From Flavobacteriales bacterium (lineage in GTDB: Bacteria > Bacteroidota > Bacteroidia > Flavobacteriales_D > CANHHI01): 33,133 bases of DNA. A model generated the notes under the pieces. The model worked only from the letters and a program-made list of their open reading frames with translations, did no database searches and was not told the origin of the DNA. The stretch's first letter is position 1; each line of letters starts with the position of its first letter. Of this stretch, positions 19,425 to 31,498 are shown one piece after another. The translations under genes and the position numbers were made by a program. The stretch spans positions 1-33,133 of the forward strand of contig CANHHI010000003.1 of assembly GCA_947460225.1 (NCBI GenBank). The letters run 5' to 3'.

Positions 19425-19495
19425 ATATAAAAAAATTATTTAATTTTGCTCTGGCTAACGAAAAAATATAGGCACATTTTGTTTTGCAAAAAGTT

Positions 19496-19525
19496 TTGGA
19501 GTTATCAAGAATAATAGTAAATTTG
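19496..19525 (+). promoter_or_regulatory. Promoter of the TolC-MFP-RND operon (TTG-N19-TAAATTTG)
   Basis: TTG at 19496-19498, 19-nt spacer, TAAATTTG at 19518-19525, just upstream of ATG 19541. Confidence 0.55.
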
Positions 19526-19540
19526 CCCTCCATTTTAGAT

Positions 19541-20878
19541 ATGAAAAGAAATTTGTTTTTATTGCTATTTGCAATGAGTACCTTTCTGCATGCGCAGGAT
19601 ACTTTAAGGCTAGATTTAGCAACCGCAAAGCAAAAAGCACTCGCCCATAACCTGGCTTTGAGACAAACTGCCTTATCCAGACTTGCCGCACACAAAGAAG
19701 TATATGAAGCCTTAACGCAAGGTTTGTTTAATGTGCAAGCCAAGGCTGGTTTTACCGATAACATTACTTTGCCTGAACAAATTTTGCCAGGAGAAATACT
19801 TAATAAACCCGGTGAGTTTATTCCTGTCAAGTTTGGTACAAAATATGGCTTTAATACCAATGTTTCGGCTAATTTACTGCTATTTGATGCCAATTATGTT
19901 GTTGCGGTGCAGGCAGCAAAGGCTTACGAAGCCCTTTTAAAAGGACAAGAAAAAAATGCAAAACACCAGGCTTTAAATGCTGTTTCCATGGCGTATTATG
20001 CCACGCTCGCTGCAAGAGAGAGCATTGTTGTTTTGGCAAGTAATTTGAGCAATGCGGAAAAAATGTTGGAAGACCTGAAAAAAGTACTCGCCAGTGGCTT
20101 GATAGAAGAGACGGACGTGGACCAAATGCTTTTGAATGTTACCCGCATACGCAATAGTTTGTATGTAGCCAATATTCAAAGAGAATTAGGTGATAAAATG
20201 TTAAACTTTCAAATGGGAGAGCCTTTGCATACACCCTTGGTTTTTCAAGATAGTTTAGCATTGATGTGGGATTTAGCCGTGCAAGATGCGCCATCTTGGT
20301 ATGAAATGCCTTTTTCAGTGGAGGAACATGGCTTGTATCAATCAGCTTTTGAACAAGTGCGCTTGCAGAAAAAAAATCGTTTGAGATACCAAACTGCTTT
20401 TTTGCCTAATTTATCGGCTTTTGGTGCTTATACTTATGCCAAAAACACGCAAAATTTTGACTTTGGACAAAGACAAGGTTGGTTTTCAGCAACTGCATGG
20501 GGTTTGAATTTGAGTTTGCCTATTTTTTCTAGTGGCAATAAAATCATATCCATACAAAAAGCCAAAATAAACCTGGATAAATCTAAATTGCAGCTGGAAG
20601 AAACAAGCGAACAACTTGATTTGCAAATGCAACAAGCATTAACGGATTATTCTTCTGCTTATGCGTCTTATACCAATGCTTTGCAAAATGTAGAACTTTC
20701 CACTAAGATTTTGCGCAAAACAGAGCTTAAATTTAATGCAGGTACTGCCAACAGTTTGGATTATACACAGGCTTTGCAACAAGCCTTGTCGGCACAAAGC
20801 GATAAAATCCAGAGCCTTTTGGCTTTGCTCAATGCGAAAACTAAAATAGAAAACTTAAAACAAAATATAAATAACTAA
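19541..20878 (+). CDS. TolC-family outer-membrane efflux protein
   Basis: MKRNLFLLLFAMSTFLHAQDTLRLDLATAKQKALAHNLALRQTALSR; C-terminal coiled coil LRKTELKFNAGTANSLDYTQALQQALSAQ. Confidence 0.92.
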   Translation: MKRNLFLLLFAMSTFLHAQDTLRLDLATAKQKALAHNLALRQTALSRLAAHKEVYEALTQGLFNVQAKAGFTDNITLPEQILPGEILNKPGEFIPVKFGTKYGFNTNVSANLLLFDANYVVAVQAAKAYEALLKGQEKNAKHQALNAVSMAYYATLAARESIVVLASNLSNAEKMLEDLKKVLASGLIEETDVDQMLLNVTRIRNSLYVANIQRELGDKMLNFQMGEPLHTPLVFQDSLALMWDLAVQDAPSWYEMPFSVEEHGLYQSAFEQVRLQKKNRLRYQTAFLPNLSAFGAYTYAKNTQNFDFGQRQGWFSATAWGLNLSLPIFSSGNKIISIQKAKINLDKSKLQLEETSEQLDLQMQQALTDYSSAYASYTNALQNVELSTKILRKTELKFNAGTANSLDYTQALQQALSAQSDKIQSLLALLNAKTKIENLKQNINN

Positions 20879-20881
20879 AAC

Positions 20882-22000
20882 ATGGCTAAATTTTTAAATC
20901 CTTTCTTATTGTTGCTTTTGCTGGCATCTTGCACGGGAAAAAATCAAACAGAACAACAGGATAAAACGGCTTTGATTGCCGAGCAAAAACGCTTGCGCAC
21001 AGCTTTGCAAGAAATAGAAGAAAAACTGACGGCTTTGGACACCAACACCAATAACCGTGCTTTGGTTTATACACAAAAAGTGGAGCGTGGTACTTTTCAG
21101 CATTTTGTAGATGCCCAAGGCAGTTTGGAAAGCAAACAGACTTTGCAAATTTTTGCCGAAGTGCCGGGTAAAGTGATGCGCATAGAAGTGAAAGAAGGGC
21201 AGGCGGTTTCGCAAGGAACGGTGCTGATGCGCATGGAAACAGACATCATAGACCAACAAATCAAAGAACTGAAAAGTGCTTTTGAATTTGCCAGTTTCAC
21301 GTATGAAAAACAAAAATCGCTACACGATCAAGGCGTTGCATCGCTTTTGGAATATAAAACGGCTAAAAATAACTTTGAAAGTGTACAGCAAAAATTGAAA
21401 GCCATGCAAAATCAAAGGGAAAAATCTATTGTTACTGCGCCAATTTCTGGCTATGTGGATAAAATTTATGCCCGTGCAGGTGAAATCAATGCAGGACAAA
21501 TGCCAGCTTTTCGTTTGGTGAACACCGATAATATTTATGCTGAATTTGAAATGAGCGAGTCTTATGTGGGGCGCATAGAAAAAGGTGCTTTGGCTGAGGT
21601 TTCTGTGCCAACCTTGCAAGCCAAGTTTGAAAACTTACAAGTAACGCACGCAGGGCAATACATACACCCCAACAACAGAACGTTTACCGTGCAAATCGCG
21701 CTGAAAAAAGACAAACGCTTGGTGCCCAATTTGATTGTGAAAGCCAAAATCAAAGATTTTGAAGAAAAAAATACCCTGGTGATTCCTTCTTTTTGCGTGC
21801 AACAAGACAACAAAGGCAATGCTTATGTGTATGTTGTGGCAGAAGGGCAAAAAGCCGAAAAAAGAGCGGTGCAATTGGGTATGCAATACGAGCAAAATCA
21901 ACAAATATTAGAAGGGCTTACAGCAGGAGAGCTTTTGGTGGTAAAAGGATTTAAAAATATCCGACAAGGACAGGCTTTGCAAGTAAAAATGGATAACTAA
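20882..22000 (+). CDS. RND efflux periplasmic adaptor (MFP) lipoprotein
   Basis: LLLLLLASCTGKN lipobox; VPGKVMRIEVKEGQAVSQGTVLMRMET; TAPISGYVDKIYARAGEINAGQ. Confidence 0.94.
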   Translation: MAKFLNPFLLLLLLASCTGKNQTEQQDKTALIAEQKRLRTALQEIEEKLTALDTNTNNRALVYTQKVERGTFQHFVDAQGSLESKQTLQIFAEVPGKVMRIEVKEGQAVSQGTVLMRMETDIIDQQIKELKSAFEFASFTYEKQKSLHDQGVASLLEYKTAKNNFESVQQKLKAMQNQREKSIVTAPISGYVDKIYARAGEINAGQMPAFRLVNTDNIYAEFEMSESYVGRIEKGALAEVSVPTLQAKFENLQVTHAGQYIHPNNRTFTVQIALKKDKRLVPNLIVKAKIKDFEEKNTLVIPSFCVQQDNKGNAYVYVVAEGQKAEKRAVQLGMQYEQNQQILEGLTAGELLVVKGFKNIRQGQALQVKMDN

Positions 22001-22002
22001 TC

Positions 22003-25000
22003 ATGCAAAAAGAAACCAAATATAAAGAATTTGCCCTATCTTCTTGGGCAGTGGACAACAACAAAACGGTTTACCTCATTACTTTTTTGGTGTTTTTGTG
22101 GGGCTTGATAGCTTATACGTCTATGCCCAAAGAAGCGTTTCCGGAAATTGTTATTCCAGAAATTTATGTGAGTACGCCTTACCCTGGCTATTCCCCAGAT
22201 ATGGTGGAAGATAAAATCACAAGGGCTTTTGAAAAGGAAATTTATACCGTAAAAGGCGTAAAAAAAGTATCTTCCCAGTCGGTGCAAGGCTTTTCGTCTA
22301 TTAAAGTGGAATTTGACTATAAAGTGCCTATTTCCGAGGGTTTGCGCAAGGTTAAAGATGCGGTGGACAAGGCTCGGGCTAAAAAGGAATTTCCAAGGGA
22401 TTTGCCCATGGAGCCTATGATTTTTGAGGCGGATATGTCGCAGATGCCGATTGTGAATATTAACTTATCGGGGGATTATAGCGCAGAACAGCTCAATGAT
22501 TATGCAGAACTTTTGAAAGACCGCATAGAAGAACTCGCTGAAATCAACAAAGTAGATATAAGAGGCGTTCAGAAAAAAGAATTACTTATAGAAATAGACC
22601 CTGCACAAGCCACAGCACGTGATGTAAGTTTTACGGACATAGAAAATGCGGTGCGCTCGGAAAATGTTAATATTTCTAGCGGTGAACTTTTAGACCAAGG
22701 TATTCGCAGAGCTATTAACATTAACGCAGAGTTAAAAGACGCCAAAGATTTTGAAAATATTGTTGTCAAGCAACACCAGGGGCAACCCATTTATTTGCGA
22801 GATGTAGCCCGTGTGAAATTCACCTTTGCCGATGTGTCTTCATTTGCAAGGGAATTTAAAAAACCTGTGGTGATGCTGGACGTGAAAAAACGTTCTGGCG
22901 AAAATCTTTTGGAGGCTTCTGATAAAATCAGAACGCTTTTGCGCCATATTTGGTCAAGCGGAGAATTGCCAGCAGATTTAAGTTATACCCTCACCAACGA
23001 CCTTTCCAGAAACACGAGAGGGCAGGTGAGCAATTTGGAAAATTCCATTATTTTGGGTGTGCTTTTGGTGGTTGGTGTGCTTTTGTTCTTTATGGGCTTG
23101 GGCAACGCGCTTTTTGTGGGTGTAGCCATACCACTTTCTATGCTGATGTCTTTTATGATTTTGCGCAGTTTGGGCATTACCCTCAACGTGATGGTTTTGT
23201 TTTCTTTGGTTTTGGCATTGGGCATGCTGGTGGACAACGGCATTGTGGTGGTGGAAAACGTTTATCGCTGGCTAGATGAAGGCATGGACAGAATTTCTGC
23301 CACAAAACGTGCCGTAGGTGAAGTCGCTTATCCGATTATTGCCTCCACAGCCACCACTTTGGCGGCGTTTATTCCCTTGGCATTATGGCCAGGCATTATG
23401 GGGGAATTTATGAAATACTTGCCCATTACTTTGATTATTGTGCTAAGTTCTTCGCTTTTTGTGGCATTGGTTATCAATCCAGCTTTGGCGGCTTATTTTA
23501 TGAAGCCATCGAGTGCGCAACAAGCAGAAAAAACAAAACCCAGCAAAAAATTGTGGATACTGGTGGTTTTGGGCTTGGTATTTATTTTGATAGGCTGGCG
23601 CACGGTGGGCAATCTAATGGTGCTTTTTGCGCTGTTTAGCTATCTCAACAAGGTTTTTTTAATTCCTAAATCTTACGCTTTCCAAAATAAATTTTTGCCA
23701 AAATTGGAAAATGCGTATCAAAAAACTTTGCGGTTTGCTTTAAAAAATAAAAATCCAAGGCGTTTTACTTTGGGCACTTTTGCCTTGCTTTTTGTGTCCT
23801 TTGTGCTTTTGGGCGTTTTCACCCCTAAGGTTGAATTTTTCCCAGTCAATGAACCAACCTATATCAATGTTTTGATAGAAATGCCGATGGGTACAGATAT
23901 TGAACAAATGAACAATATCACCCGTCAGGTGGAAAATATTACCGAGCAAGTGCTTGGCAAATACAAAGATGTATATGGCATAAACGCAAAAACCCAAGAC
24001 ACCTTGCGCTTTGTGGAGTCTATGATTGCGCAAGTTGGGCAAGGAGCTTCCGATCCCAATGACGGCGTTGCCCTCAACGATACGCCCAATAAGGCACGTT
24101 TAACGGTTTCTTTTTCAGAGTTTGAATACAGAAATGGCGTGTCCACAGGCGAGGTGATGAAAGAACTGCGCCATGCCTTGGTGGGTGTTTTTCCTGCGGA
24201 TATAAAAATTGCTGTGGATAAAAACCGCTCTGGACCACCGCAAGAACCGCCTATCAACATAGAGGTGCGTGGGCATGCGGGTAGCCGTTATGAAGATATT
24301 TTAGATGCAGCCGATGATTTATTGGGCTATATTGGGCAAAAAAACATTGCGGGTATAGAAAATTTAAAAATGGATATAGAAATCAGCCGTCCTGAAATGC
24401 CTTTGCATATAGATAGGGAAAAAGCTCGGTTTTTGGGTTTATCCACCCAGCAGATTGCGTATCACGTGCGTACGGCTTTGTTTGGTAGTCAATTTTCAAC
24501 CTATAAACAAGGCAAAGAGGTGTATGATGTGAATTTGCGCTATCAAGACGAAGATAGATACAATTTAAATTTACTCTTAGACCAAAAAATTGTGTTTAGA
24601 GACCAAATTACGGGTAAATTGCTGAGTATTCCTTTGAGTGCCGTTTTGGAAGCCCCTAAAAAGACTTCCAGTTTTTCGGCGGTGAATAGATTAAATCAAC
24701 AGCGTTTGGTGCGTTTGAAATCGCAAGTTAGCGAGGGTTATAACGCCAATGAGGTTGTGCAAAACATCAAACAAACCTTGTCGGGTTATACCATGCCCGA
24801 TGGATTTATGTATAAATTCACGGGGCAACAAGAAGAGCAAGCCAAGGAGATGAAATTTTTGAGCACTGCGCTTTTGATAGCGGTATTTTTGGTGTTTTTA
24901 ATTATCGTGATGCAATTTAATTCTATTTCCACGCCTTTGATTATTATGTCGGCGGTGGTTTTGAGTTTGATTGGGGTTTTGCTTGGACTGGTGATTTTCC

Positions 25001-25461
25001 AGCGTCCCTTTATCATCATTATGACCATGATTGGGATTATCTCGCTGGCAGGTGTGGTGGTAAACAACGCCATTGTGCTTATTGACTATACGCAGGTTTT
25101 GGTGAATAAACGCAAGGACGAACTTGGGCTGTCATCTGACGAATATTTGGAGGAATCTGATATGAAAGCCTGCATTGTCAAAGGAGGCACAACACGTTTG
25201 CGCCCAGTACTGCTCACGGCAATTACCACCATTTTGGGATTGATACCTATGGCAGTGGGCATTAACATTAACTTTTTGACTTGGCTTTCGGATTACGATG
25301 CCAATATTTATTTGGGCGGAGAAAACGCATTGTTTTTTGGTGCCATGAGTGAGGCGATTATCTACGGTTTGGTGTTTGCCACCTTCTTGACTTTGGTGAT
25401 TGTCCCGGTGATGTATTTGCTTTTGTATAAATTAAAAAGGCGTTTAGCTAAAAATGGATAG
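22003..25461 (+). CDS. RND efflux transporter permease (AcrB/MexF-like)
   Basis: 1152 aa; PEIVIPEIYVSTPYPGYSPDMVEDKITR, LALGMLVDNGIVVVENVYRWLDEG, GGTTRLRPVLLTAITTILGLIPMA. Confidence 0.96.
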   Translation: MQKETKYKEFALSSWAVDNNKTVYLITFLVFLWGLIAYTSMPKEAFPEIVIPEIYVSTPYPGYSPDMVEDKITRAFEKEIYTVKGVKKVSSQSVQGFSSIKVEFDYKVPISEGLRKVKDAVDKARAKKEFPRDLPMEPMIFEADMSQMPIVNINLSGDYSAEQLNDYAELLKDRIEELAEINKVDIRGVQKKELLIEIDPAQATARDVSFTDIENAVRSENVNISSGELLDQGIRRAININAELKDAKDFENIVVKQHQGQPIYLRDVARVKFTFADVSSFAREFKKPVVMLDVKKRSGENLLEASDKIRTLLRHIWSSGELPADLSYTLTNDLSRNTRGQVSNLENSIILGVLLVVGVLLFFMGLGNALFVGVAIPLSMLMSFMILRSLGITLNVMVLFSLVLALGMLVDNGIVVVENVYRWLDEGMDRISATKRAVGEVAYPIIASTATTLAAFIPLALWPGIMGEFMKYLPITLIIVLSSSLFVALVINPALAAYFMKPSSAQQAEKTKPSKKLWILVVLGLVFILIGWRTVGNLMVLFALFSYLNKVFLIPKSYAFQNKFLPKLENAYQKTLRFALKNKNPRRFTLGTFALLFVSFVLLGVFTPKVEFFPVNEPTYINVLIEMPMGTDIEQMNNITRQVENITEQVLGKYKDVYGINAKTQDTLRFVESMIAQVGQGASDPNDGVALNDTPNKARLTVSFSEFEYRNGVSTGEVMKELRHALVGVFPADIKIAVDKNRSGPPQEPPINIEVRGHAGSRYEDILDAADDLLGYIGQKNIAGIENLKMDIEISRPEMPLHIDREKARFLGLSTQQIAYHVRTALFGSQFSTYKQGKEVYDVNLRYQDEDRYNLNLLLDQKIVFRDQITGKLLSIPLSAVLEAPKKTSSFSAVNRLNQQRLVRLKSQVSEGYNANEVVQNIKQTLSGYTMPDGFMYKFTGQQEEQAKEMKFLSTALLIAVFLVFLIIVMQFNSISTPLIIMSAVVLSLIGVLLGLVIFQRPFIIIMTMIGIISLAGVVVNNAIVLIDYTQVLVNKRKDELGLSSDEYLEESDMKACIVKGGTTRLRPVLLTAITTILGLIPMAVGININFLTWLSDYDANIYLGGENALFFGAMSEAIIYGLVFATFLTLVIVPVMYLLLYKLKRRLAKNG

Positions 25462-25470
25462 GAAACAAAA

Positions 25471-25498
25471 AAATCGGGCAATTGCCCGATTTTTTTTA
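25471..25498. terminator. Bidirectional terminator
   Basis: AAATCGGGCAATTGCCCGATTT palindrome with flanking A and T runs between convergent genes. Confidence 0.88.
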
Positions 25499-25516
25499 TG
25501 TTTTATTTAGTTTTAT

Positions 25517-26680
25517 TTATTCTAGTTCAAATATTGCTTGAATTTCCACAGGAACACCCAAAGGCAAAGAACTTGTGCCCAAACTTGCTCGGGCATGTTT
25601 GCCTTTATCTCCTAAAATAGCAACCAATAAATTCGAGGCTTCATTGAGTAGTTTGGCGTGGTTTTGGTAATCTTCCGTTGTGTTGAAAAAGCCCGTGAGT
25701 TGCACGGTTTGTTTGACTTTACGCCAATCATTGTCTGTGGCTTTGTAGAGCACTGCCAAAACATTTAACAGCGTTGTTCTTGTGTTTTGCATGGCGTCCG
25801 CTTCGGAAATATCTCTGCCAATTTTGCCCACAAACTCAGGTTTTCCCTCCTTTAAGCCAATTTGATTGATATACACCAATTTGCCCACAATGGTGTAAGG
25901 GCGATAATTCCCCACAGGCTCAGGAACTTGGGGTAAAGTGATATTCATTTTTTCCAAACGTGCTTCAATCTCTTGATTTTTGCTGGGTTTTTCGCTTGTA
26001 TCATTTATCTTTGGATTGATGCCTTGCAGGGCTTTGGCAATTTCTGCCAAACGTGCACCTTGTAAGCGAGCTAAATACAATTCAGAAGCAGAAGGTCTTT
26101 CTCCACCTGCACCTGCTAAACTGCTTGTGCCATAAGGACTATTGCCTTGTGGAACGGATTTATCCACCTGTGCCATACCTGCCATGCCCGTTGGTATAAT
26201 CAACATGCCGTGCGATGCCAAAGCATGCCAAACGGATAACATGGCTGTTTCCTTGCCTGCGCCACTGCCTGCGGACATAAAAACGGTGCTTGGTTTTCCC
26301 GCCAATTTTTGTTCCGACCACAGTGGAATGGTTTGGCTGAGAAAGGCTGAAAATGCCGTGCTCATACCACCAAAATACACGGGACTTCCCCATGCTATCC
26401 CCTGGTACATGGGTAATTCTTCTACCTGCACAACAGGCAAATTATCCCAAGCCTGTTTTTTATTGGTTTGGTCAGGAATTCGTTTTAGGATAGCTTTGCA
26501 ATCGGCTATGCTTTCTACGCCTTCAGCTATGGCTTTTGCCATTTGGAAAGTGCCTCCGTTTTCAGAATGAAAGACCACCAAAATTTTTGTGCTGTCTTTT
26601 ATCATAGGCTTTGTTTTTTGCGGTGCGCCGTTTGCAATGCCATAAGACAACAAACCGATACCGATAATCAATTTCTTCAT
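25517..26680 (-). CDS. Putatively exported fusion: WrbA-like flavodoxin/quinone oxidoreductase + RidA (YjgF/YER057c) domain
   Basis: N-terminal signal peptide (MKKLIIGIGLLSYGIANGAPQ). WrbA-like KILVVFHSENGGTFQMAKAIAEGV, AWGSPVYFGGMSTAFSAFL, GKPSTVFMSAGSGAGKETAMLSVWHALASHGMLIIPTG. RidA part IEARLEKMNITLPQVPEPVGNYRPYTIVGKLVYINQIGLKEG...GKHARASLGTSSLPLGVPVEIQAIFELE. Confidence 0.87.
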   Translation of the reverse strand: MKKLIIGIGLLSYGIANGAPQKTKPMIKDSTKILVVFHSENGGTFQMAKAIAEGVESIADCKAILKRIPDQTNKKQAWDNLPVVQVEELPMYQGIAWGSPVYFGGMSTAFSAFLSQTIPLWSEQKLAGKPSTVFMSAGSGAGKETAMLSVWHALASHGMLIIPTGMAGMAQVDKSVPQGNSPYGTSSLAGAGGERPSASELYLARLQGARLAEIAKALQGINPKINDTSEKPSKNQEIEARLEKMNITLPQVPEPVGNYRPYTIVGKLVYINQIGLKEGKPEFVGKIGRDISEADAMQNTRTTLLNVLAVLYKATDNDWRKVKQTVQLTGFFNTTEDYQNHAKLLNEASNLLVAILGDKGKHARASLGTSSLPLGVPVEIQAIFELE

Positions 26681-26707
26681 GTTTTTATCTATAATAATTC
26701 TACGCTG

Positions 26708-27061
26708 TTAGCACCTTTCGGCAACCTTTGGATTTTTCAACAAATAATTTATGCCCCATTTTTCCATGCTTTCCAATACCGGGCATAGTTCTTTGCCAAA
26801 GTCTGTTAAAAAATATTCCACTTTTGGCGGTATCACGCTATGTACCTGCTTGTATATTAACCCGTCTGCGAGCAATTCTTGTATTTGCTTGCTTAAAACA
26901 CGCCGACTAATGTTTTTAATATTTCGTTCTATATCACTGGGTCTATGTACGCCTTTGGCAATAAAATGCAAAATATTCAATTTCCATTTTCCGCCAATAA
27001 TCACCAAAGTGATTGCCATGGGGCATAAATTTTTTTCTGTTTCTTTTGGTGTTTCTATCAT
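26708..27061 (-). CDS. HxlR-family winged-helix transcriptional regulator
   Basis: LCPMAITLVIIGGKWKLNILHFIAKGVHRPSDIERNIKNISRRVLSKQIQELLADGLI...PKVEYFLTDFGKELCPVLESMEKWG. Confidence 0.95.
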   Translation of the reverse strand: MIETPKETEKNLCPMAITLVIIGGKWKLNILHFIAKGVHRPSDIERNIKNISRRVLSKQIQELLADGLIYKQVHSVIPPKVEYFLTDFGKELCPVLESMEKWGINYLLKNPKVAERC

Positions 27062-27114
27062 GCTAAAAATTCATTTGTGCTTAATTTATCCCTTAGGGCA
27101 TAAAAAATCCCTAC

Positions 27115-27145
27115 TTGCTTGTCGCTTTGTTTTCATTTAACTTTG
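27115..27145 (+). promoter_or_regulatory. Promoter for the nitroreductase operon (TTG-N20-TAACTTTG)
   Basis: TTG 27115-27117, 20 nt, TAACTTTG 27138-27145; CDS start 27168. Confidence 0.55.
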
Positions 27146-27149
27146 TATG

Positions 27150-27179
27150 CAAATATAGTAGATAATTATGAAACCACAA
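27150..27179 (-). promoter_or_regulatory. Promoter for hxlR and the WrbA-RidA gene (TTG-N19-TATATTTG on minus)
   Basis: Minus strand: TTG (27179-27177), 19 nt, TATATTTG (27157-27150). Confidence 0.4.
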
Positions 27180-27836
27180 GAAATTTTAGATGCCTTGCAG
27201 TGGCGATATTCGGTTAAAAAATTTGATGCGGGCAAAAAAATAGAAGAGTCTATTTGGCAAAACATTTTAGACGCCGCTGTGCTTACACCGTCTTCGTTTG
27301 GTTTACAGCCTTGGCAATTTTTAGACGTGCGAAACGTTGAACTACGTGAAAAACTTGTACTTGCGAGCTACGGGCAAAAACAAGTAGCAGAATCTTCGCA
27401 TCTTTTGGTGCTGACTTGCAAAAAAACGATGGACCAGGCGCATTTAGACCGTTTCCTTGCGGTGTCTCAAAAAATTAGAAAAGCCAATGCGATGGCAATT
27501 ATAGGTGAAAATGGGGCAACAGATTATGCTGGAGAAAATTTTAAAGCCATTACGCTGTCTTTTATACAAAGTTTGAGTGCCGAGCAAAATTTTATTTGGA
27601 ATGCCAATCAGATTTATATCGTTTTGGGCAATATTCTCACAGTAGCAGCCATGCTTGGGATTGATGCCATTCCTATGGAAGGCTTTGAAGCGGAAAAATA
27701 CAATGAAATTTTACACATAGATAAAAATTATACCGCTAAATTAGTTGTGCCTTTTGGTTATCGAAGTGCCCAAGACAAGAATGCGACGTATAACAAAGTG
27801 CGCTTTGATAAATCGGAAATTGTTAAAATTATTTAA
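27168..27836 (+). CDS. Nitroreductase-family NAD(P)H-dependent oxidoreductase
   Basis: ILDALQWRYSVKKFDAGKKI, AAVLTPSSFGLQPWQFLDV, NAMAIIGENGA...IPMEGFEAEKYNEIL: NfsB-like FMN nitroreductase. Confidence 0.93.
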   Translation: MKPQEILDALQWRYSVKKFDAGKKIEESIWQNILDAAVLTPSSFGLQPWQFLDVRNVELREKLVLASYGQKQVAESSHLLVLTCKKTMDQAHLDRFLAVSQKIRKANAMAIIGENGATDYAGENFKAITLSFIQSLSAEQNFIWNANQIYIVLGNILTVAAMLGIDAIPMEGFEAEKYNEILHIDKNYTAKLVVPFGYRSAQDKNATYNKVRFDKSEIVKII

Positions 27837-27838
27837 AT

Positions 27839-28282
27839 ATGACACCTAATCAGTACCACAGTCTTTCCAAAGAAACAGTAGATAAATTATACGCTACTTA
27901 CTTTAGTTTAAAAAATTCTTCTGTACCTGCAGAATTGGCAATTTTAACAGAAGTGTTTGTTTCCAGAATAAATGCCTGCGATTTTTGCATAGGTTATCAC
28001 GTGAAAGATGCCCAAAAGCATGGTATTTCTCAAGAGAAAATAGATGCTGTGTCCATGGATGTTTATCAAGATGCTATGTGTTTGGATGAGCAAGAAAAAT
28101 GGGCTTTGCAATATGCTCATGCTGTAACCATAAATCAAAAAGAGCGTTATGAAGAGCTACATAAACAGCTAGAACAAACATTTACTTCTCAGCAAATTGT
28201 GGATTTAACTTTGGTTATATCCATTACGAATTGTTTTAATAAACTAACAGGTTCTTTAAAATATGCAACCTTAAATGCTTAG
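27839..28282 (+). CDS. Carboxymuconolactone decarboxylase/AhpD-like protein
   Basis: AILTEVFVSRINACDFCIGYHVKDAQKHG: CxxC...H AhpD-core motif. Confidence 0.88.
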   Translation: MTPNQYHSLSKETVDKLYATYFSLKNSSVPAELAILTEVFVSRINACDFCIGYHVKDAQKHGISQEKIDAVSMDVYQDAMCLDEQEKWALQYAHAVTINQKERYEELHKQLEQTFTSQQIVDLTLVISITNCFNKLTGSLKYATLNA

Positions 28283-28901
28283 TTTTATGGATATTTTTTT
28301 TCAATCTTTTATACTGGGTTTAGCTATAACCATTCCTGTTGGACCTGCTACTTTTTTGTGTATCAATAGCACCTTAAATCAGGGATTTAGACATGGTTTG
28401 GTTACCAGTATAGGGATAACTTTAGCAGACTCTTTGTACGCACTTGTTGCAGTTTTGGGTCTTGGCACCATTACTGTATTTACTAGCCAGTACGGGTTTA
28501 TTCCCCAAGTGTTGGGTTCTTTGTTTTTGGCTTACTTGGGTGTAAAAAACCTGCGTAAGTCATCCACTTTGGATGCCCAAAAAGTAGTGCGGGCTAGTCT
28601 TTTGAAAAACTTTTTGAGTAGTTTTTTCTTTACTTTGTCCAGCCCAGCTACTTTAATTTTATTCTTAGCTGCTATGAGTTTGGTGCAATTTCAAGCTGAT
28701 ATGACTAGGGATATTGTGTTTATATTGCTAGGATTTATGTTGGCGTGCATGGGTTTTTGGTTGCTGCTTATAAGTGTATTGCTCTTGTTCAAAAAGCGTT
28801 TATCTGAAAACGCCATTAACATGATGAATAAAATATCTGGTTTGATTTTTATTGGTTTTGCCCTTGTGGGTTTCTATATGTTCTTCAAAAATATCTTATA
28901 G
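28275..28901 (+). CDS. LysE/RhtB-family transporter
   Basis: FILGLAITIPVGPATFLCINSTLNQGFRHGLVTSIGITLADSLYALVAVLGLG and LGVKNLRKS: LysE family. Confidence 0.9.
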   Translation: MLSFMDIFFQSFILGLAITIPVGPATFLCINSTLNQGFRHGLVTSIGITLADSLYALVAVLGLGTITVFTSQYGFIPQVLGSLFLAYLGVKNLRKSSTLDAQKVVRASLLKNFLSSFFFTLSSPATLILFLAAMSLVQFQADMTRDIVFILLGFMLACMGFWLLLISVLLLFKKRLSENAINMMNKISGLIFIGFALVGFYMFFKNIL

Positions 28902-28904
28902 AAT

Positions 28905-29969
28905 ATGTTAGTTAAACAAAATATAATCTTGCCAATGGCTTTGGCAGGTATTTTATCTGCCCAAAGTCCTGCTGTGCAAAAAGCCATGGCTTCTCGTTTG
29001 CCCGCAGACCCAAATAGAGTGTATTCCACGTTTAATACGGTTTTAATTGATAAAGAACTTGCGCCTGGTGTGTTTGCTGTTTTTGCCGACGATGCCTTTG
29101 AGCGTGGCGAAAAAGGCTTACAGGTGAGCACGTCTAGTGGTTATGTGATTGGCGAAAAAGGTGTTTTGGTGATAGATGCCCAGCAAACCAAAAGACTTGC
29201 CACCAATTTGATAGAACTTATCAAAGAAAAAACGGATAAACCTATTTTGTATGTGGTCAATACCAATTACTATGGCGACCATTCTTTTGGCAATCAATTT
29301 TTTGTTGCGGAAGGTTTTCGCATCATCAACAATGGCACCAAAATCATTCAACATGAAAATGCCCAAAAAATGATACAAAATCATTTTGAAGAAGATAGGG
29401 TTTTTGAATATACTTTGAGTGCACGCAAAGAAGACGTGGCAGAAATGCAACCCACGCCTGCCGATATTTTAATCACCGGGCAAGCTGTGAGCAAAACCGT
29501 GATTGATTTGGGCGATAAACAGGTGGAAATTATTTACCCAGGGCGCACCCAAACCGATGGAAATTTATTTGTGTATCTGCCTAAAGAAAAAGTGCTCTTT
29601 GGTGGAAATTCTATTCCTTCTGGGGGCAAAGTGGTGGGCATGCCTTGGCTTACGTACGGCGGTTTAGATGAATTTTTAAAATCTTTGCAGGTTTTGCGCA
29701 AGATGCTTGCGAGCGATTCGCAAATTGGCTCTGGACACGGTTATCCCACGGATATAAAGGCTTTGGATAATATTATTGTCTATTTTCAAGATTTGCAAAA
29801 AAGTGTTAGGCAAGCGGTAAACAAAGGCTTAGATTTGGCGCAAACAAAAATAAAAGTTAAACAAGACTTGGAAAAATACCGCAATCACACGCTTTTTGAG
29901 ATGATACAAGACCTCAATATTGAAAAAACTTATCAAGAATACAAAACAGTAACCCCTAAAACCAAATAA
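28905..29969 (+). CDS. Secreted metallo-beta-lactamase-fold protein with degenerate metal site
   Basis: N-terminal hydrophobic signal-like segment; MBL fold landmarks GVLVIDAQQTKRLATNLIELIKEKTDKPILYVVNTNYYGDHSFGN, YPGRTQTDGNLFVYLPKEKVLFGGNS, IGSGHGYPTD. Confidence 0.85.
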   Translation: MLVKQNIILPMALAGILSAQSPAVQKAMASRLPADPNRVYSTFNTVLIDKELAPGVFAVFADDAFERGEKGLQVSTSSGYVIGEKGVLVIDAQQTKRLATNLIELIKEKTDKPILYVVNTNYYGDHSFGNQFFVAEGFRIINNGTKIIQHENAQKMIQNHFEEDRVFEYTLSARKEDVAEMQPTPADILITGQAVSKTVIDLGDKQVEIIYPGRTQTDGNLFVYLPKEKVLFGGNSIPSGGKVVGMPWLTYGGLDEFLKSLQVLRKMLASDSQIGSGHGYPTDIKALDNIIVYFQDLQKSVRQAVNKGLDLAQTKIKVKQDLEKYRNHTLFEMIQDLNIEKTYQEYKTVTPKTK

Positions 29970-29971
29970 TT

Positions 29972-30379
29972 ATGCTTAAAAAAATTCTAAACTTGGATAT
30001 GATTCCAAAAAGTACAGACTTAGGGTTGCTTGCCTTGCGTCTAGTTATCAGTTTTGCCATGCTTGGCAAACATGCTTTGCACAAAATTTCAGATTTTAGT
30101 GCCATGAAAGACATTTTTCCAGACCCCTTGCATATTGGTTCTACCATGAGCTTAATTTCTGCCATTGTGGTGGAAAATGTATTTTCAATTTTATTGATTT
30201 TGGGCATTTATGCACGGTTTGCGGCTTTTGCCCTTTTTATGAATTTACTCGTTATTTGGGCTTTGGTGTATCAATTTTCCATCGCTACCGACCACCACGA
30301 ACTCGTGTTGCTCTATCTGGTGGGTTACTTCACCTTGATTTTTACAGGTGCAGGCAAGTACAGCCTTGATAAGCAATAA
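29972..30379 (+). CDS. DoxX-family membrane protein
   Basis: TDLGLLALRLVISFAMLGKHALHKISDF...FSILLILGIYARFAAFALFMNLLV: four-TM DoxX pattern. Confidence 0.85.
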   Translation: MLKKILNLDMIPKSTDLGLLALRLVISFAMLGKHALHKISDFSAMKDIFPDPLHIGSTMSLISAIVVENVFSILLILGIYARFAAFALFMNLLVIWALVYQFSIATDHHELVLLYLVGYFTLIFTGAGKYSLDKQ

Positions 30380-30399
30380 CGGAATTTAGAAGTTAAGGT

Positions 30400-30427
30400 A
30401 AAAATGGAGCGTTTACACGCTCCATTT
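30400..30427. terminator. Bidirectional terminator
   Basis: AAAAATGGAGCGT-ttac-ACGCTCCATTTTT hairpin between convergent doxX and ADH genes. Confidence 0.87.
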
Positions 30428-30430
30428 TTA

Positions 30431-31498
30431 TTATTTAGACATATCCGACTGTTTGACATCTATCACAAAGCGATACTTCACATCGGATTTCAACACCCGC
30501 TCGTATGCTTCATTGATGGCTTGCACCTTGATTATTTCTATATCCGACACAATGCCTTTTTCGGCACAAAAATCCAACATTTCTTGCGTTTCCGCTATGC
30601 CCCCAATGAGTGAGCCCAAAATCTGTTTTCTTTGCATCACCAAAATGGCAGGATTTACAGGCACAGCCTCAGCAGGTATGCCCACTACCGCCAAAGTGCC
30701 ACCTATGTTTAGCAAATTTAAATACGCATTGTAATCAATCGGCGCAGACACTGTGTTCAAAATCGCATCAAAACTGCCTGCGAGTGTTTGCATATTTTCC
30801 GCTTTTGTGGTGAGTGCAAAATGATGTGCGCCCAATTTTAGCGCATCGGCTTTTTTATTTTCCGAAGTGCTCAACACCGTAACTTCTGCGCCCATTGCCA
30901 CAGCTATTTTTACAGCCATGTGTCCCAAACCGCCAAGTCCAATAATGCCTATTTTTTTGCCTTTGCCAACGCCTAGTTTTTTCAAGGGCGAAAACGTGGT
31001 AATGCCTGCGCACAAAAGCGGTGCCGTAGCGGCTAGGTTGTTTTCAAATTTTTTGGAAATGCTGAGTGCAAAAGCCTCCGTGCAAATAATATGCGTGGCA
31101 TAACCGCCATAAGTAGGTCGCCCTGCGATTTTATCCATGCTGTTGTAAGACCAGGTAACACCTTCTTTGCAATACTGTTCTTCATGGGCTTTGCAATGCG
31201 AGCAAGCCCGGCAAGAATCCACCATACAGCCCACGCCAGCCCAGTCGCCAACTTTAAATTTGCTCACCGCACCGCCCACGGCAATCACTTTGCCGATAAT
31301 TTCATGCCCTGGCACCATGGGAAACGTAGAACCGCCCCATTCGTTGCGTGCTTGGTGAATATCCGAATGGCACACCCCACAATAATAAATTTCTATTTCT
31401 ACGTCTTTGTCTTGACAATCCCTTTGCACAAAGTCAAAAGGTTTTAAGTTTTCGTCTGCTTTATACGCAGCATAAGCCAATACTTTTCTGGTATTCAT
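30431..31498 (-). CDS. Zn-dependent NAD(P)-alcohol dehydrogenase / aldehyde reductase (YahK/CAD-like)
   Basis: YYCGVCHSDIHQARNEWG, GVGCMVDSCRACSHCKAHEEQYC, IGIIGLGGLGHMAVKIAVAMGAEVTVLSTSENK. Confidence 0.94.
   Translation of the reverse strand: MNTRKVLAYAAYKADENLKPFDFVQRDCQDKDVEIEIYYCGVCHSDIHQARNEWGGSTFPMVPGHEIIGKVIAVGGAVSKFKVGDWAGVGCMVDSCRACSHCKAHEEQYCKEGVTWSYNSMDKIAGRPTYGGYATHIICTEAFALSISKKFENNLAATAPLLCAGITTFSPLKKLGVGKGKKIGIIGLGGLGHMAVKIAVAMGAEVTVLSTSENKKADALKLGAHHFALTTKAENMQTLAGSFDAILNTVSAPIDYNAYLNLLNIGGTLAVVGIPAEAVPVNPAILVMQRKQILGSLIGGIAETQEMLDFCAEKGIVSDIEIIKVQAINEAYERVLKSDVKYRFVIDVKQSDMSK

Follow-up and report, generated by a model that had tools for sequence, protein, structure and literature searches.

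The window, the whole 33,133-nucleotide stretch of DNA that was analysed, contains a divergent gene cluster that has the look of a detoxification set put together locally, not of a conserved system. We tentatively read it as a lineage-specific detoxification locus associated with HxlR, and electrophilic aromatics are the most plausible compounds for it to counter; co-regulation, signal, substrates and joint action of the products are what we infer from the genes. What newly speaks for aromatic electrophile chemistry, and can be checked, is that one operon protein is probably an intact zinc hydrolase of the chlorothalonil dehalogenase (Chd) type. The cluster is known from one draft genome.

Layout and boundaries of the cluster

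The leftward unit consists of hxlR followed, after a 27-nt gap, by the gene for a WrbA-Rid fusion. The rightward unit comprises, in order, the genes for a nitroreductase (NTR), an AhpD/CMD-like protein, LysE, an MBL-fold protein and DoxX (Table 1). Its genes are separated by 2 nt (NTR-CMD), 3 nt (LysE-MBL) and 2 nt (MBL-DoxX), while CMD and LysE overlap by 8 nt. Pfam and NCBIfam profiles uphold the families of all eight ORFs. The first-pass annotation can be followed in its gene positions and family names, in the divergent arrangement around HxlR (a leftward pair against a rightward five-gene operon) and in its description of a mainly redox/detoxification gene set. The tight operon spacing and the two strong hairpins that bound the cluster argue for the detoxification reading. 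The same annotation had made the zinc-alcohol dehydrogenase (Zn-ADH) a member of the system. However, it is encoded on the opposite strand, past the second hairpin, and because this strong bidirectional hairpin parts it from doxX, it is best treated as a separate, convergent gene whose membership in the cluster is not required. An efflux operon with TolC-like, HlyD and RND genes (window positions 19484-25461) directly precedes the cluster, with a bidirectional hairpin between them, and at the contig end (32665-33131) two short overlapping ORFs resemble one frameshift-split protein.

Table 1. Features of the cluster, in window coordinates
Feature	Position	Strand	Size	Evidence or remark
Bidirectional terminator-like hairpin	25460-25506	.		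between RND pump gene and fusion gene; z ~ -5.7 on either strand
WrbA-Rid fusion	25517-26680	-	387 aa	NF002999 150.7 bits, PF14588 63.5 bits
HxlR/DUF24 winged-helix regulator	26708-27061	-	117 aa	PF01638 95.2 bits
Divergent intergenic region	27062-27167	.	106 bp	candidate promoter, chance-level palindrome
NfsB-type nitroreductase	27168-27836	+	222 aa	PF00881 83.6 bits; PDB 9gjx, NfsB relatives
AhpD/CMD-like protein	27839-28282	+	147 aa	PF02627 and TIGR00778 above cut-off; PDB Atu0492, PA0269
LysE/RhtB-type exporter	28275-28901	+	208 aa	PF01810 72.5 bits
Chd-type MBL-fold protein	28905-29969	+	354 aa	Lactamase_B family; 6uxu match, predicted zinc-ligand mapping
DoxX-family membrane protein	29972-30379	+	135 aa	PF07681 49.4 bits
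Bidirectional terminator-like hairpin	30395-30440	.		between doxX and convergent ADH gene; z -8.3 and -9.7; also delimited as 30397-30432
Zinc-alcohol dehydrogenase	30431-31498	opposite to rightward operon		convergent

The HxlR regulator and the divergent promoter region

The regulator is the only HxlR match in the genome, which is 79% complete. Its assignment to HxlR/DUF24 lies far above the curated PF01638 cut-off (20.8 bits), and its solved relatives in the PDB include HxlR, HypR (YybR), QsrR and YodB. It contains three cysteines (Cys13, Cys93 and Cys117), and Cys13, which precedes the (I)GGKW motif, is the N-terminal Cys that the first-pass annotation had pointed out. In the DUF24 regulators YodB, CatR and HypR, the N-terminal Cys senses HOCl, quinones and diamide, and their regulons contain the nitroreductase YodC and the azoreductase AzoR1 (PMC6943732). 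The window resembles these Bacillus subtilis systems in that an HxlR-family regulator with an N-terminal Cys lies beside a nitroreductase gene and a gene of quinone-reductase type, and by analogy the composition of the DUF24 regulons favours the detoxification reading. Unlike the B. subtilis regulons, the window set, a predicted regulon, adds the AhpD-like, LysE, Chd-like and DoxX proteins and the exported fusion. The Cys had also been taken as a pointer to quinone sensing, which is not supported: Cys13 is present in 27 of 31 aligned HxlR sequences, counting that of the window (two of the remaining four have gaps), and the relatives come from loci without any other cluster gene nearby. The residue is therefore family-wide and not diagnostic of a quinone signal. 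The Cys11-Lys13 methylene cross-link of formaldehyde-sensing HxlR is not expected here either, since Met15 stands in the place of Lys13.

Upstream of the nitroreductase gene, a candidate Bacteroidota-type promoter (CTTG-N16-TAACTTTG, one mismatch, ~27118-27145) may drive the rightward operon; within the window, the exact Bacteroidota promoter consensus does not occur above chance frequency. A palindrome at 27085-27104 (16/20) was rejected as an operator, as its like is seen in 8% of shuffles and in 6.5% of window pieces, and no operator above chance was recognised in the 106-bp intergenic region. The family-wide Cys, Met15 in place of Lys and the lack of a recognisable operator count against the detoxification reading. 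A literature search found no relevant paper on HxlR together with DoxX in Bacteroidetes.

A chlorothalonil dehalogenase relative and the WrbA-Rid fusion

The MBL-fold protein seems degenerate because its motif reads NYYGDH and the positions of two usual ligands, the second-motif His and the Cys/Asp ligand, are occupied by Gln and Asn; it does not match the canonical metallo-beta-lactamase ligand pattern (HxHxDH with a second-site His and Cys/Asp). It had been described as degenerate on first inspection, but none of the residues that hold the catalytic zinc in Chd is lacking. Its closest solved structure is Chd of Pseudomonas sp. CTN-3 (PDB 6uxu; 147 bits, E 4.9e-42, residues 43-344), with ~36% identity across nearly the entire mature protein, while the second-best structure reaches only 57 bits. 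Chd hydrolyses chlorothalonil, an electrophilic aryl chloride, with Asp116, His117, Asn216 and His257 as catalytic zinc ligands and a structural zinc site at the dimer interface formed by His143 and Asp146 (PMC12784990). In the 6uxu sequence the Asn, the distal His and the interface His lie 100, 141 and 27 residues past the Asp, in agreement with this numbering (PMC12784990). In the alignment to 6uxu, all four catalytic ligands are identical (D125, H126, N235 and H278). At the interface site the His is kept (H160) and, unlike in Chd, Asp146 is replaced by Glu163. Given these four conserved ligands, the protein is probably an intact zinc hydrolase of Chd type, although ~36% identity does not fix its substrate. 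The predicted relationship to Chd, with all four ligands, favours the detoxification reading, and an aryl dehalogenase relative in the operon gives this idea independent, if indirect, support. The case shows that what seems a degenerate metallo-beta-lactamase motif can turn out to be another subfamily's intact site. Moreover, Chd, which destroys the fungicide chlorothalonil, has so far been known as a pesticide-degrading enzyme, and an apparently intact relative in a probably regulated redox operon of Bacteroidia, flanked by hxlR, offers a lead to a natural role.

The N-terminus of the MBL protein has a hydrophobic, signal-like stretch. An AlphaFold model of the protein alone (pLDDT 37) was set aside. 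Searching the genome's own contigs with this protein returned a single distant relative. A second, distant MBL-fold ORF of the genome (L068, 6704-7387) is truncated by a contig end. Four Chd-like homologues (L062-L065) also keep the four catalytic ligands; three belong to Bacteroidia and the fourth to a different class of the phylum. The three Bacteroidia homologues (L062-L064) lie in a recurrent cluster of several secreted-looking enzymes that is placed at ~4-13 kb of each locus and in two cases includes an Old Yellow Enzyme-like reductase, these genes being named by inspection alone.

The fusion joins a WrbA-type NAD(P)H:quinone oxidoreductase, called by NF002999 against a cut-off of 141 bits, to a PF14588 Rid-like domain. 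An Arg in the latter (HARASLG) may correspond to Arg105, the catalytic Arg of E. coli RidA, a by-eye comparison that we treat as a lead only. Full-length orthologues with both domains (47-54% identity) were found in five of 398 phylum genomes, all Bacteroidia (L028-L032), and on the conjugative plasmid pYGP1 of Sphingobium sp. YG1 (L117, 7914-9080). Signal-peptide-like N-termini are common to these proteins, and because the orthologues begin with evident signal peptides, export, as proposed in the first-pass annotation, looks conserved. WrbA depends on NAD(P)H, a cytoplasmic electron donor that is not expected outside the cytoplasm, which makes an exported WrbA-like protein odd; the exported fusion may therefore have another role. 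Unlike the window fusion, its relatives in Bacteroidia and on pYGP1 have neighbourhoods without an HxlR gene or the rightward operon. On pYGP1 the gene adjoins an SDR oxidoreductase gene, with insertion sequences nearby; apart from this fusion, plasmid searches gave weak matches. No relevant paper on any WrbA-RidA fusion was found in a literature search.

The peroxidase-like AhpD/CMD protein scores 36.6 bits with TIGR00778 (cut-off 27.8) and carries the CxxC of the core domain (CDFCIGYH, CxxC...H). The retained AhpD CxxC and a predicted quinone reductase of WrbA type are both in keeping with detoxification, whereas an exported WrbA without its expected NAD(P)H and a Chd identity too low to fix a substrate speak against it.

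Occurrence across Bacteroidota and readings of the cluster

The first-pass annotation had named co-occurrence of the genes across Bacteroidota as its own test, and this failed in every sample searched. The MBL protein and the fusion were searched for in 60 order relatives and 398 phylum genomes, the nitroreductase and CMD protein in 342 class genomes, and HxlR and LysE in 186 class genomes; these six proteins were the genome queries, and the samples were partial and covered genomes outside the window's own family. The full gene set recurs in none of these samples, and the 60 order relatives contain no convincing orthologue of the MBL protein or of the complete fusion. In the phylum sample, the five genomes with the fusion (G268, G304, G324, G344 and G384) and the four with a Chd-like protein (G071, G232, G280 and G281) do not overlap, and the gene contexts differ. 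The 11-18 kb neighbourhoods of these genes contain no second, different cluster member, nor do the short (1.5-kb) flanks of the nearest nitroreductase, CMD, HxlR and LysE homologues contain another cluster gene; the sole blast match to ADH among the neighbourhoods is weak (L061, 25% identity). Recurrent co-localisation, as expected of a conserved multi-gene system, was therefore not seen in the other Bacteroidota genomes sampled, which weakens the proposal that an envelope quinone/electrophile system exists as a recurring unit.

This lack of recurrence in any genome sample counts against the detoxification reading. The main rival is chance assembly, a serious if somewhat doubtful possibility in which HxlR would regulate only itself and perhaps one neighbour, and individually acquired redox genes would share a transcript without a joint pathway. 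Three observations fit such an origin: in the Bacteroidota samples no two cluster genes turned up close together, the fusion and Chd-like genes of other genomes have surroundings quite unlike those in the window, and gene GC spans 0.336 to 0.44 within the cluster. It accounts less well for a five-gene operon with 2-3-nt gaps, one overlap and a divergent regulator, or for the redox or detoxification-type families of most products.

Unlikely, by comparison, is an operon that serves the catabolism or biosynthesis of one particular small molecule and is switched by HxlR in response to a ligand. The nitroreductase might, for example, convert an aromatic or amino-compound that the Chd-like enzyme would then hydrolyse and LysE export. 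LysE/RhtB exporters handle amino-acid-like compounds, and Chd-like homologues elsewhere are clustered with amidohydrolase-like and Old Yellow Enzyme-like ORFs (named from sequence starts only), both of which would suit this explanation. However, the operon lacks enzymes for ring cleavage, CoA ligation or any other clear pathway step, and the AhpD-like protein and the quinone reductase better match stress.

For the favoured detoxification locus, an electrophilic or oxidising aromatic (a quinone, nitro- or halo-aromatic) would modify the Cys13 thiol of HxlR, and the modified regulator would alter how both units are transcribed, the leftward one to which it belongs and the divergent rightward operon. 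In the cytoplasm, the nitroreductase and the CxxC protein of AhpD type would be at work; DoxX would function in the membrane, LysE would export a product, and the two exported proteins, the Chd-like zinc hydrolase and the WrbA-Rid fusion, would function beyond the inner membrane. In the most far-reaching form of this idea, a thiol switch in HxlR would govern a detoxification set that spans the envelope, and its exported arm would pair a Chd-type zinc aryl dehalogenase with the WrbA-Rid fusion. This is rather improbable; if true, it would point to a natural role of the Chd family in defence against electrophilic haloaromatics.
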